The notes under the pieces were generated by a model that worked only from the letters and a program-made list of their open reading frames with translations, was not told the DNA's origin and ran no database searches. Position numbers and translations under genes: made by a program. 36,864 nt of DNA from Bifidobacterium breve. Its GTDB lineage: Bacteria > Actinomycetota > Thermoleophilia > Gaiellales > F1-60-MAGs149. Location of the stretch: the NCBI GenBank assembly GCA_945877865.1, contig CAMDVX010000003.1, positions 1 to 36,864 on the forward strand, written 5' to 3'. Shown here one piece after another: positions 14,948 to 21,421 of the stretch (the stretch's first letter is position 1; each line of letters starts with the position of its first letter).

Positions 14948-14976
14948 TTGACAGATCCGCTCGCTCTTGACACGCT
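14948..14976 (+). promoter_or_regulatory. Candidate trp operon promoter (TTGACA-N17-CACGCT)
   Basis: TTGACA at 14948-14953, 17-nt spacer, CACGCT at 14971-14976 keeping the conserved A2 and T6 of a -10; predicted start falls near the trpL ATG. Confidence 0.4.
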
Positions 14977-14982
14977 GCACCT

Positions 14983-15045
14983 ATGCAGCGATTCCGCAAC
15001 GAGGCGTGGTGGTGGTGCCAGCTCGGGCGGGATCCCGTGCGCTGA
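14983..15045 (+). CDS. trpL: trp leader peptide with three tandem Trp codons
   Basis: atg cag cga ttc cgc aac gag gcg tgg tgg tgg tgc cag ctc ggg cgg gat ccc gtg cgc tga = MQRFRNEAWWWCQLGRDPVR, directly upstream of a terminator and trpE. Confidence 0.85.
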   Translation: MQRFRNEAWWWCQLGRDPVR

Positions 15046-15074
15046 CGCGCACAGCCGATCCGAACCGCCCGGGC
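15021..15074 (+). promoter_or_regulatory. Candidate antiterminator of trp attenuator
   Basis: GCTCGGGCGG (15021-15030) pairs with CCGCCCGGGC (15065-15074): 10 contiguous pairs with one G-U; overlaps the terminator 5' arm; nested GTGCGC-tgac-GCGCAC hairpin at 15037-15052. Confidence 0.75.
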
Positions 15075-15098
15075 TTCCCACAAGGGGAGCCTTTTTTT
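15072..15098 (+). terminator. Intrinsic terminator (trp attenuator)
   Basis: GGCTTCCC-ACAA-GGGGAGCC (8 bp with one G-U) followed by TTTTTTT. Confidence 0.88.
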
Positions 15099-15118
15099 AT
15101 GCCTCCGAAACGAACCAG

Positions 15119-16519
15119 ATGAACCCGACCCAGCCCAGACCGAAGCCCCTCTCCCGCCTCCGCCCCAGCGTGCGCGAGCTGCCGGCCGACCTGCTGACTC
15201 CGGTCGGGGCCTACCTGCGGCTGCGCTCGCTCGGCCCTGGCTTCCTGCTGGAGAGCGTCGAGGGCGGGCTGCAGGTCGGCCGCTACTCGTTTCTGGCAGC
15301 GGGCTGCGAGCGGCTCGACCTTGACCTCCAGGAGGCGGACGCCTTCGGTCCGCTGCGAGCGCGCCTCGCGGAGCACGCGGACCTCGACCTGTCGGGGCTG
15401 CCACCGTTCGCTGGTGGCGCCGTTGGCGTCGTCGGGTACGACGCAATCCCACGCTTCGAGTCGACGGTGCCGCTGCCTGCCGCCGAGCCGGGCGACCTTG
15501 CGCAGCCCGCCAGCTTTCTGCTGGCACCCGTCGTCGTGGCCTTCGACCACGTGCGCGCCACCGTCCAGGTGATCGCGCAGCCAGGCCACGAGGGGCTCGC
15601 CGACGACATCACAGCGCGCCTGCTCGGCCCCTTGCCCGATGGCGTGCAGCCCGTGCCCGCCCTCGTCGACGCCGGTACGTCCGTCGCGGACCTCGAGATC
15701 GACGAGTACATCGAGCGCGTCGAGCTCGGCAAGCAGCACATCACCGCGGGCGACGTCTTTCAGGTCGTGCTGTCGCAGCGCCACCGCCGCCGCACGCCGC
15801 GCAGCCCCGTGGCGATCTACCGTGCCCTGCGCGCCGTCAACCCCTCGCCCTACCTGTTCCTGCTCGACCTCGGCGACTTCGCCTTGATCGGCGCCTCGCC
15901 CGAGACCCACGTTGCGCTGTCGCGCGACGGCGAGGCCGAGCTGCGGCCGATCGCTGGCACGCGGCCCCGTGGTGCGGATGCCGCTGAGGACGATCGTCTC
16001 GCCGAGGAGCTGCTGGCCGATCCGAAGGAGCGGGCCGAGCACCAGATGCTCGTCGACCTCGCCCGCAACGACCTCTCTCGCGTCTGCGATCCGGGCACCG
16101 TCCGGCCCACCCGCCTGCTGGAGATCGAGCGCTACAGCCACGTCATGCACATCGTCTCGCGCGTCGTCGGCCGCCTCTCTGCCGACGAGGACGCCTTCAG
16201 CCTGCTGGCCGCGACCTTCCCCGCTGGCACCGTCTCCGGGGCTCCGAAGGTGCGCGCCATGCAGATCATCAGCGCGCTCGAGCCGCACCGCCGCGGCGCG
16301 TACGCCGGCGCAGTCGGCTACCTCGGTACGGACGGCGCGCTCGACACGTGCATTGCGCTGCGCACGATCCAGCTGCGCGATGGCGTCGCGACCCTGCAGG
16401 CAGGCGCCGGCATCGTCGCCGACAGCGACCCGGCCGAGGAGCACCGTGAGTGCCTCCGCAAGATCGCTGCTCTGCAGCGCGCCGTCGACCTCGCCGATGC
16501 CGGAGCGTACGGGCGATGA
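15119..16519 (+). CDS. trpE: Anthranilate synthase component I
   Basis: FALIGASPETHVALSRDGEAELRPIAGTRPRG, DLARNDLSRVC, FPAGTVSGAPKVRAMQII. Confidence 0.96.
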   Translation: MNPTQPRPKPLSRLRPSVRELPADLLTPVGAYLRLRSLGPGFLLESVEGGLQVGRYSFLAAGCERLDLDLQEADAFGPLRARLAEHADLDLSGLPPFAGGAVGVVGYDAIPRFESTVPLPAAEPGDLAQPASFLLAPVVVAFDHVRATVQVIAQPGHEGLADDITARLLGPLPDGVQPVPALVDAGTSVADLEIDEYIERVELGKQHITAGDVFQVVLSQRHRRRTPRSPVAIYRALRAVNPSPYLFLLDLGDFALIGASPETHVALSRDGEAELRPIAGTRPRGADAAEDDRLAEELLADPKERAEHQMLVDLARNDLSRVCDPGTVRPTRLLEIERYSHVMHIVSRVVGRLSADEDAFSLLAATFPAGTVSGAPKVRAMQIISALEPHRRGAYAGAVGYLGTDGALDTCIALRTIQLRDGVATLQAGAGIVADSDPAEEHRECLRKIAALQRAVDLADAGAYGR

Positions 16520-17100
16520 GCCGCGTGCTGCTGATCGACAACTTCGATTCGTTCACGTACAACCTCGCGCACGGCTTCGCCGAGGCGGGCGCGGACGAGG
16601 TGATCGTGCGCCGCAACGACGCGATCAGCGTGGACGAGGCGCTCGCGCTGGCCCCCTCGCACCTCGTCATCTCGCCCGGCCCCGGCACCCCCGACCAGAC
16701 CGGGGTGTCCGCCGACCTGATCCGAGCGTTCGACGGCCAGCTCCCGATCCTCGGCGTCTGCCTTGGCCACCAGCTGCTCGTCGAGCTCCACGGCGGCACG
16801 GTCGGCGCAGCCGTCCAGCTCGTCCACGGCAAGGCCGACGACATCACTCGCGTGGCACCTGATGCGCTGCTCGACCTCCTCGCTGAGCGCTTTCGCGCTG
16901 GCCGCTATCACTCGCTGGCAGCCCACGAGCCGATCCCCACGACGCTCATCGTGACGGCGCGTGCCGACGACGGGACGGTGATGGCGGTGCGCACCCCCGA
17001 CCGACCGACGCATGGCGTGCAGTTCCACCCGGAGAGCATCCTCACGCCCGACGGCCCCGTGCTGATGGCCGCATTCCTCGCGCTCGGAGCCGTCGCGTGA
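16516..17100 (+). CDS. trpG: Anthranilate synthase component II (glutamine amidotransferase)
   Basis: LLIDNFDSFTYNL, SPGPGTP, GVCLGHQ, GVQFHPESI; ATGA overlap with trpE. Confidence 0.96.
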   Translation: MSRVLLIDNFDSFTYNLAHGFAEAGADEVIVRRNDAISVDEALALAPSHLVISPGPGTPDQTGVSADLIRAFDGQLPILGVCLGHQLLVELHGGTVGAAVQLVHGKADDITRVAPDALLDLLAERFRAGRYHSLAAHEPIPTTLIVTARADDGTVMAVRTPDRPTHGVQFHPESILTPDGPVLMAAFLALGAVA

Positions 17101-18137
17101 GCGCGGCGGCGCTGCTCGAGGCGCTCCCGCGGCTGCTGGCTGGCGAGGACCTCACGCCTGCCGAGGCGCGCGCGGCGCTCGACGTGGTCATGCGTGGCGA
17201 CGCGACGCCCGCTCAGATCGCCGCGCTCCTCGTTGCGCTGCGTGCCAAGGGCGAGACGCCGGCGGAGATCGCCGGGTGCGCCGGGGCGCTGCGCGACCAC
17301 GCCGTCGCGGTCCGGCCGCTGCGCACCGACCTCGTCGACACGTGCGGCACGGGTGGCGATCGCACCGGGTCGTTCAACATCTCGACGGCCGCCGCTCTCG
17401 TGGCCGCCGGCGCGGGGGCAGGGGTGGCGAAGCACGGCAACCGCTCGGTCTCGTCCAAGTCGGGCAGCGCCGATGTGCTCGAGGAGCTCGGCGTCCCCGT
17501 CGAGGTGCCGCACGCTGCCGTGGCGGCGATGATCGATGCGCACGGCTTTGGCTTCCTCTTCGCACCGAGCCACCACCCGGCGATGCGGTTTGCGGGGCCC
17601 GTCCGTCGCGAGCTCGGCATCCCGACGATCATGAACCTGCTCGGCCCGCTCGCGAACCCCGTCGGCGCACGCTTCCAGGTCGTCGGCGTCCCCCGCCCCG
17701 ACCTCGTCGCCACGCTGTCTGAGGTGCTCCAGCTGCTCGGCACCGAGCGGGCGCTCGTCGTCCATGGCGAAGGCGGGTTCGACGAGATCACCCCGGGCGG
17801 CACGACGACGATTGCCGAGGTGACGCCCGCCGGCATCACCGTGACGACCTTCGACCCCGCCGCGATCGGCATCCCGCGGAGCCCGGCCGCTGCTCTGGCT
17901 GGCGCCGGACCCACCGAGAACGCCGCGATCATCCGCCGCGTCTTCGCCGGTGAGGCGGGTCCGCCACGCGACGCCGTGGTGCTCAATGCCGCAGCGGCGC
18001 TCGTAGCCTGCGGCATCGCCGACACTCTGGAGGCCGGCGCGGCCTTGGCGTGCGCGGCCATCGATAGCGGGCAGGCCGCGGCGGTGCTGGAAGCGGTTGG
18101 AGCGGCGGCCCGGGCGGCCGCGAAAGGAGGCACGTGA
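17097..18137 (+). CDS. trpD: Anthranilate phosphoribosyltransferase
   Basis: DTCGTGGDRTGSFNISTAAALVAAGAGAGVAKHGNRSVSSKSGSADVLEELG; GTG start. Confidence 0.96.
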   Translation: MSAAALLEALPRLLAGEDLTPAEARAALDVVMRGDATPAQIAALLVALRAKGETPAEIAGCAGALRDHAVAVRPLRTDLVDTCGTGGDRTGSFNISTAAALVAAGAGAGVAKHGNRSVSSKSGSADVLEELGVPVEVPHAAVAAMIDAHGFGFLFAPSHHPAMRFAGPVRRELGIPTIMNLLGPLANPVGARFQVVGVPRPDLVATLSEVLQLLGTERALVVHGEGGFDEITPGGTTTIAEVTPAGITVTTFDPAAIGIPRSPAAALAGAGPTENAAIIRRVFAGEAGPPRDAVVLNAAAALVACGIADTLEAGAALACAAIDSGQAAAVLEAVGAAARAAAKGGT

Positions 18138-18859
18138 TGGGGTACCTGCAGGAGATCGGCGCCTGGACGCACAACGAGGTCGCGCGGCGGCGGGAGACGC
18201 GGCCATTTGCCGGTGCTCTGCACGTCCCCGGCCAGACCCAGATTATCGCGGAGATCAAGCGCGCCTCGCCGAGCGAGGGACCAATCGCGCCGCTTGCCGA
18301 CGCGGCCGAGGTGGCCCGCCACTACGAGGCCGGTGGCGCCGCCGCGATCTCGGTCCTCACCAGCCCCAAGGACTTTGCCGGCTCGCTGCTCGATCTCGCC
18401 CGCGTGCGGGCCGTGACGAAGCTGCCGCTGCTGGCGAAGGACTTCTTCGTCGATCCGTACCAGGTCGTCGAGGCGCGCGCCCACGGGGCCGATGCGATCC
18501 TCGTGATCCTCGCGCTCGTCGACGACGCGCTTGCTCAGGACCTGATGCAGGCTGCGGAGGACCATCAGATGGACGTCCTCTGCGAGGTGCACGACGAGGC
18601 AGAGCTGGCTCGGGCGCTCGCGCTCGGCTGCCCGGTCATCGGCGTCAACGCGCGCAACCTCGCCACCCTCAAGATCGATCCGATCCTCCAGCGCAAGCTG
18701 CTCGCCGCCATCCCCACGGGCTTCGTCAGCGTCGCAGAGTCGGGCGTCACGAACCGGGCCGAGCTTGAGGCGGCCGCTAAGGCCGGCGCCTCCGCTGCCC
18801 TCGTTGGCACCGCGCTGATGCGCAATCCCTCGCTGCTCACGGAGCTGACCCGACCGTGA
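18134..18859 (+). CDS. trpC: Indole-3-glycerol phosphate synthase
   Basis: IIAEIKRASPSEGPI, ISVLTSPKDFAGS, PLLAKDFFVDPYQVVEARAHGADAILVILALV, VIGVNARNLATLKID; AAAGGAGG upstream; start 18134 (GTG) or 18137 (ATG). Confidence 0.95.
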   Translation: MMGYLQEIGAWTHNEVARRRETRPFAGALHVPGQTQIIAEIKRASPSEGPIAPLADAAEVARHYEAGGAAAISVLTSPKDFAGSLLDLARVRAVTKLPLLAKDFFVDPYQVVEARAHGADAILVILALVDDALAQDLMQAAEDHQMDVLCEVHDEAELARALALGCPVIGVNARNLATLKIDPILQRKLLAAIPTGFVSVAESGVTNRAELEAAAKAGASAALVGTALMRNPSLLTELTRP

Positions 18860-19461
18860 CCCTCGTCAAGGTCTGCGGGATGACGCGCGCCGACGACGTC
18901 GAGCACGCGGTCCGTCACGGGGCTGACATGATTGGCTTCGTGCTGGTGCCGTGGTCGCCGCGCGGCATTGACCTCGCCACGGTGCGAGCGCTCCGTGGCC
19001 ACGTGCCTGCTGACGTGGAGGCCATTGGCGTGCTGGCAGGCGAGACCGCGGAGCACGCGGCACACGTCCTCGCTGAGGCCCGGCTCGACCGCGTTCAGGT
19101 CTACGGGCCGCACGCGGGCGCGACCGCTGCGCTGCTCGGCGACCGGGCGCTCGTCGCCTGCCGGCTCCCCGACGACGATCCCGAGAGCGCAGACCCGGTC
19201 GTGCTCGACCGCCGCTTCGATGACGCGCCCGACCCCGACGCGCTCGCCGCGCACTGGGCGCTTGCTGCGCAGCTCGCCGACCAGGGCCGCCGCGTCATGC
19301 TGGCCGGCGCCCTCACGCCGAGCAACGTCAGCGCAGCAATCACGGCTGCCCGCCCGTGGGCCGTCGACGTGGCCCGCGGCGTCGAAGCGAGCCACGGTGC
19401 GAAGGACCACGACAAGCTATCGGCGTTCCTCGCCGCCGCGCGAGAAGGAGCAAGAGCATGA
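18856..19461 (+). CDS. trpF: Phosphoribosylanthranilate isomerase (diverged)
   Basis: [60 protein letters not shown]. Confidence 0.88.
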
Positions 19462-20678
19462 CCGACACGCACCTGTACACCGACGGCACGCCAGCCGATG
19501 CCTACCCGCCCGACGCGCTTGGTCGCTTTGGCGAGTTCGGCGGCCGCTTCGTGCCCGAGACGGTGATGGCCGCCCTCGACGAGCTCGAATCGGCGATGGA
19601 CGAGGCGTTCGCCGACCCCGCCTTTCACGCCGAGCGGGCGCTGCTGTCGCGCGACTTCGTCGGCCGCCCCACCGCGCTCTACCTTGCCGAGCGGCTCACC
19701 GCCGACGTCGGCGGTGCCCGCATCTGGCTCAAGCGCGAAGATCTGGCGCATACGGGCGCCCACAAGATCAACAACGCGCTCGGGCAGGCCCTAATCGCGA
19801 AGCGGCTTGGCAAGCAGCGGATCGTCGCCGAGACGGGTGCCGGCCAGCACGGCGTCGCAACGGCGACCGTCTGCGCGCGCTTCGGGCTGCAGGCCGTCGT
19901 CTACATGGGCGAGGAGGACATGCGTCGCCAGCGCCCCAACGTCGTGCGCATGCACTTCCTCGGCGCGGAGGTCATCCCGGTCACAAACGGCGCGGGCACC
20001 CTCAAGGACGCCCTCAACGACGCGATTCGCGACTGGATCGCCAACGTTGAGACGACGCACTACATGATTGGCACCGCCGCCGGCATGCACCCGTACCCCT
20101 ACCTCGTGCGTCGGCTCCAAGCGGTGATCGGCGAGGAGGCGCGCGCGCAGATGCTGGAGCGCGCCGGGCGCCTGCCTGACGCCGTCGTGGCCTGCGTCGG
20201 TGGTGGCTCAAATGCGATCGGCATCTTCCATCCGTTCCGCGACGACCCCGTGCGGCTCGTCGGCGTCGAGGCCGGTGGCGACGGCGCTGCGCTGCACGCC
20301 AAGACCTTGAGCGGTGGCCGCGTCTCGATCCTGCACGGCTCGCGCTCCTACGTGCTGTGCGATGCCGACGGCCAGGTCGTCGAGACGCACTCGATTAGCG
20401 CTGGCCTGGACTATCCGGGCGTCGGGCCAGAGCACGCGGCGCTGATGGCGTCTGGCCGCGCCGAGTACGTCGGCGTCTCCGACGAGGAGGCGCTCGTGGC
20501 GTTCGACCGCCTCTGCCTCCTCGAGGGCATCATTCCAGCGCTGGAGTCGAGCCATGCGCTCGTCATCGCTGAGCGCCTCGCCCGCGAGCTCGGGCCGGAC
20601 GCCGACATCCTCGTCGGGCTCTCCGGGCGCGGCGACAAGGACGTCGATCAGATCGCCGAGCGACGGGCAACGGCATGA
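19458..20678 (+). CDS. trpB: Tryptophan synthase beta chain
   Basis: [63 protein letters not shown]. Confidence 0.97.
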
Positions 20679-21421
20679 ACATCCCCCGCCCCTCGCTCGC
20701 GGTCTACCTGATGGCCGACGAGCAGGCCCCCGACTACGCCGAGGCCGCGGTCCGCGGTGGCGCCACCATCATCGAGCTCGGCATCCCGTACTCCGACCCG
20801 CTCGCCGACGGCACGACCATCCAGCGCGCCGCGCAGGCTGCGCTCGACGCGGGCATCACCCCCGTCCGCGCGCTCGAGCTGCTCGCGGAGATCAAGAGCC
20901 GCGTCAACGTCCCCCTCGTGCCGATGACGTACGGCGCCATCGTCGAGGGCTACGGCGAGGAGGGCTTCTGCCGCGATGCGGCTGCCGCTGGCGCTGAGGG
21001 TCTGATCGTCGCCGACATTCCACCGGAGGAATCGGGCCGGCTCCGCAGCGCTGCGGTGTCCGCCGGGATCGACCTGATCCACCTCGTCGCGCCAACCTCC
21101 CGGCCGGAGCGCATTGCCGCCGCCGCCTCTGCCAGCCGCGGCTTCGTCTACCTCGTGGCCGCCGTCGGCGTGACGGGCGCGCGCGAGCACCTCGACGACC
21201 GCGTGGCGGCGCTCGTCGAGCAGACGCGGGCAGCGGCAGGCGACACGCCCATCCTCGGTGGCTTCGGCGTGTCACGCCGCGAGCACGTCGCGGGCCTGAT
21301 CGCCGCCGGGGCGGATGGCGCCATCGTCGGCTCGGCGGCCATCGACGCGATCGACGCGGGCGGCGCCGAGGCGCTTGAGGCGCTCGTGCGCGAGCTGGCG
21401 GCCGGGCTCCAAGCCGTCTGA
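20675..21421 (+). CDS. trpA: Tryptophan synthase alpha chain
   Basis: [70 protein letters not shown]. Confidence 0.95.

Follow-up and report, generated by a model that had tools for sequence, protein, structure and literature searches.

The question raised by this locus is how the tryptophan genes of the window (the whole stretch of 36,864 nucleotides that was analysed) are controlled, the preliminary description having placed a complete attenuator upstream of trp genes. Judging from the sequence, we consider it very probable that the element is a ribosome-mediated transcription attenuator of the trp operon (Table 1). On re-reading, the leader ORF with its three Trp codons, the terminator, the T7 tract and the nested hairpin were all found as described, and the genes downstream make up a complete trp operon; the gene upstream of the leader, an acetyl-CoA acyltransferase, runs in the opposite direction. 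Three aspects had not been part of that description, namely the probable leaderless start, the occurrence of the element across the order together with leaders before trpS, and the small overlap between the antiterminator (stem A) and the terminator. The genome from which the window comes is 83% complete (1.49 Mb, 114 contigs) and also holds a second chorismate-binding enzyme gene (G000:C10:22009-22773), which is less trpE-like, with 37% identity. In one relative (G005:C28, L095/L097) trpE is found in two overlapping pieces, probably reflecting a frameshift in the assembly or in the gene.

Table 1. Coordinates in the window of the predicted trp attenuator and the operon that it precedes.
Feature	Position	Strand	Details and basis
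Predicted promoter TTGACA, 17-nt spacer, CACGCT	14948..14976	+	sole such match in the window
Leader peptide ORF MQRFRNEAWWWCQLGRDPVR	14983..15045	+	ATG 14983, TGA 15043-15045, 20 codons; relatives; probably leaderless
Trp codons TGG TGG TGG, consecutive	15007..15015	+	read in the sequence; kept in relatives
Stem A (antiterminator), 5' arm	15020..15030	+	pairing; covariation across the order
Stem A, 3' arm	15065..15075	+	15072-15075 common to stem A and terminator
Inner GATC:GATC stem (4 bp), 5' arm	15031..15034	+	pairs with 15057-15060
Inner GATC:GATC stem, 3' arm	15057..15060	+	pairs with 15031-15034
Nested hairpin GTGCGC-TGAC-GCGCAC	15037..15052	+	leader stop codon in loop
Intrinsic terminator and T7	15072..15098	+	8-bp stem: GGCTTCCC 15072-15079, ACAA loop, GGGGAGCC 15084-15091; T7 15092-15098
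Regulated operon trpE-G-D-C-F-B-A, complete	15119..21421	+	NCBIfam matches

The spacing between the predicted promoter and the leader suggests that transcription starts at, or immediately adjoining, the leader ATG. A promoter with a TTGAC-like -35 element and a -10 element with A2/T6 ends 6-10 nt 5' of the leader start codon in 71 of 74 leaders; its score was equalled by 6% of mononucleotide shuffles of the upstream DNA, the start codon having been picked jointly with the promoter by best score, a procedure which is biased towards such pairs in real and shuffled DNA alike. None of the 71 leaders with this promoter is preceded by a Shine-Dalgarno-like site and, because of this and of the conserved promoter-to-start spacing, the leader is probably translated from a leaderless transcript. 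Leaderless transcripts have been mapped for trpL1 and trpL2 of Streptomyces lividans (PMC8079986), and in Sinorhizobium meliloti, a member of another phylum, the leader mRNA of trpLE(G) likewise begins with the trpL ATG (PMC7298713). Within the window TGGTGGTGG occurs three times against 0.31 expected, the other two occurrences lying elsewhere on the minus strand.

The preliminary description had proposed a 10-bp alternative stem (15021-15030/15065-15074); the pairing was upheld but the length was not, as A15020-U15075 extends stem A to 11 bp, including one G-U pair, and the GATC stem and the nested hairpin stack inside it. As a control for chance, 5000 dinucleotide shuffles of 15016-15091 were examined, amongst which 20 contained such a terminator stem and 39 a stem of at least 10 bp ending no more than 6 nt from the terminator start, whilst none contained both. 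Folding at equilibrium, computed for RNAs with the ribosome stalled or at the stop codon, was tried as a test of exclusivity and dropped as non-discriminating: even with the ribosome stalled, the terminator is predicted with P about 0.94, and the leaders of E. coli and Streptomyces-like genomes likewise give about 0.99.

Several small features were seen between the terminator and trpE. A 7-codon ORF (MPPKRTR, 15099-15122) lies directly 3' of the T7 tract, its stop codon overlapping the trpE start (ATGA); it is similar in the relatives L085 and L086, but not in other relatives. No obvious Shine-Dalgarno sequence precedes the trpE ATG at 15119 (15105-15121), and in many of the order's leaders the T-run gives way to TGCC(C) (15096-15103 in the window), a motif which may contain the trpE start codon in some leaders and not in others.

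Conservation of the element was followed outwards from the window's family to the phylum. Each of the 13 trpE loci read in the window's family, that of the window among them, has a Trp-rich leader, stem and terminator, and the Trp codons upstream of trpE, whose conservation the preliminary description had made a point to check, are kept at every one of these and in most of the order. With a scripted filter, a Trp-rich leader and a terminator-like T-run were detected before trpE at 74 of the 90 loci of the order; some of the 16 failures are losses to the filter (e.g., L120, where a leader is visible by eye), and others, including three loci of a fourth family (L178, L179, and L182), may lack the element. 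A covariance model built from the large sister family, R1, has matches in 68 of the 299 genomes sampled from the class, all of them within the order and none outside it, and gives no match in the window's own genome. Thirteen extra or weak R1 matches were examined: 12 precede trpS, and the remaining one (L219) lies within a coding sequence that has nothing to do with trp, and is probably a false positive. Trp-rich leaders of the same type thus stand before trpS in 12 genomes of the large family (L215-L218 and L220-L227), several of which (e.g., L215, L216, L217, and L220-L222) have no evident U-tract terminator, and a different mode of control is therefore possible there. At 14 trpS loci of the window's own family no sign of attenuation was seen. 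In 11 genomes from other families of the class no Trp-rich leader was found 5' of the best trpE match, and elsewhere in the phylum one was found in two of 29 genomes, a test which is not exhaustive, as three Streptomyces-like genomes were negative and yet carry a WWW leader elsewhere. The two leaders concerned, L248 (G369) and L249 (G359), are short and Trp-rich, reading MKDISGKAKLHSFWWGPR and MSRTRTVAAGQWWWSPPY respectively.

The preliminary description had also looked to compensatory changes in both stems, and these are present in both helices of the large sister family. In an alignment of 54 sequences, 88.8% of cells pair across stem A and the terminator, a figure which drops to about 50% when the partner is slid by one column; 13 of the 20 pairs change on both sides as compared with a shuffled mean of 5.9, a value reached in none of 500 shuffles, which ignore phylogeny. 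Within the window's genus stem A is 100% paired, with wobble changes only and no double changes, and support for stem A in this genus hence comes from the comparison between genera, where the arms co-vary (CGGGCGG:CCGCCCG in the window, AGGGCGGAC:GTCCGCCCT in G001, and GGCGAGG:CCTCGCC in G014).

The mechanism which we propose begins with RNA polymerase starting at or adjoining the leader ATG and a ribosome loading directly onto the leaderless message. Under a shortage of charged tRNA-Trp, this ribosome would stall on the three Trp codons, stem A and its inner stems would fold, the terminator would fail, and trpEGDCFBA would be transcribed. With tryptophan in good supply, the ribosome would instead reach the stop codon, open the nested hairpin and cover the inner 5' arm, so that stem A would be blocked and transcription would end at the T7 tract. 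A ribosome at the stop had earlier been thought to cover the antiterminator arm; with the usual footprint it would cover that arm in part, from about 15025 onward, and not as a whole. The arrangement of the parts is regular, with a median of 5 nt from the last Trp codon to stem A, and medians of -4 (window's family) and 2 nt (large family) from stem A to the terminator, these figures excluding stems shorter than 9 bp and resting on stems chosen by a scripted best-helix search, in which a few long-gap picks are probably wrong. The leader stop codon always falls within the loop of stem A, and the nested helix encloses it in 59 of 61 stems.

A classical antiterminator pairs with bases that belong to the terminator. 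Stem A takes four of the eight terminator pairs in the window (15072-15075), so that 4 bp of the terminator stem remain at a distance from the U-tract, and 3-5 of 7-9 pairs in 11 of the 12 sequences of the window's family, as would suit textbook attenuation and nothing more, in which stem A wins purely by competing for common bases and the bulk of the ribosome is irrelevant. In attenuators published for Actinobacteria, too, a short conserved triple is shared (PMC1262725), and this explanation is a serious one whose likelihood we would place somewhat short of even. It is at odds with the large family, where in 53 of 56 sequences stem A adjoins the terminator and takes none of its core pairs, and where cognate-specific complementarity of the leaders to the terminator arm was not found (0.50). 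The same leaders have a modest cognate-specific complementarity to the 3' arm of the stem (0.37). Base competition alone is thus doubtful where stem A overlaps the terminator so little. A second antiterminator was considered for the large family, between the GGGAGC region of the leader and the terminator 5' arm, and was rejected as not cognate-specific (0.50).

Since stem A takes no terminator pairs in the large family, it is proposed that it could act there as a cinch, its folding drawing the stalled ribosome up to the terminator, which would then be unable to fold at the polymerase exit. A coupled ribosome lowers termination at E. coli pyrL in vitro, where the ribosome itself prevents the terminator hairpin from folding, as proposed here for the non-overlapping relatives; pyrL differs in that it senses UTP through polymerase speed rather than tRNA charging, and has no cinching stem (PMC10135430). 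Extended to the order as a whole, this would amount to a class of attenuators in which the antiterminator leaves the bases of the terminator alone: a conserved stem holding the stop codon in a nested hairpin would fold on stalling, take up the greater part of the RNA that separates the ribosome from the terminator, and press the ribosome, or a helix next to the polymerase exit, against the terminator, which could then not fold. Such a class is put forward tentatively, as a possibility on the lesser side of the balance. Stem A may thus act by base competition, by cinching of the stalled ribosome, or by both.

Stem A might on the other hand serve mainly as a hairpin which pauses and synchronises the polymerase, with the stalled ribosome controlling termination in some other way. 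Pause hairpins belong to the E. coli trp model, and stem A is long, encloses the stop codon and reaches to just 5' of the terminator; however, control through stalling accounts better for its position so close behind the Trp codons, which makes a role chiefly in pausing unlikely. A constitutive terminator, or stems formed by chance with no regulatory role, is scarcely credible, for although GC-rich DNA readily forms stems and the overall fold energy reaches only z = -2, the Trp codons, stems, promoter spacing and gene context are kept across dozens of genomes, and stem and terminator never came together in the shuffles.

Ribosome-mediated trp attenuation is a kind of control already known, and on the best reading the present instance is new for its lineage. 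The suggestion of the preliminary description to that effect agrees with the literature searched, which places actinobacterial trp attenuators in Corynebacterium and Streptomyces only (PMC1262725, PMC8079986, PMC4046766), and with a comparison to Rfam, including the Trp_leader family RF00513, that gave no match at the gathering score or at E up to 1. Neither the lineage nor the non-overlapping layout was found in a search of largely open-access literature. The Streptomyces leaders trpL1/trpE (MFAHSTRNWWWTAHPAAH) and trpL2/trpS (PMC8079986, PMC1262725) are alike in having a leaderless leader, which is predicted here, a WWW triplet, a terminator, and positions before trpE and trpS. They differ in that the predicted antiterminator of three Streptomyces-like genomes takes seven bases of the terminator arm, against four of eight pairs in the window and none in most sister-family genomes, and in that Streptomyces has a trpS leader (trpL2) whereas the window's family is without one. 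The Corynebacterium attenuator, likened by description only, also has tandem Trp codons and a terminator and antiterminator 5' of trpE (PMC1262725, PMC4046766). With E. coli trpL (RF00513) the element would have in common that ribosome stalling on Trp codons selects between two RNA folds, whilst the leader in the window has no Shine-Dalgarno sequence and a different layout of stems.

The trp attenuators of this order are not covered by Rfam in the comparison made here, and the covariance model of the large family already detects leaders in unannotated genomes, that of the window excepted. With these results, trp attenuation would reach into an actinobacterial order that is largely uncultured, where it would govern the trp operon and, in the large family, trpS as well. 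The stem which abuts the terminator and does not overlap it makes a more general question testable, that is, whether an antiterminator must share bases with the terminator or whether a stalled ribosome lying adjacent to it may suffice.
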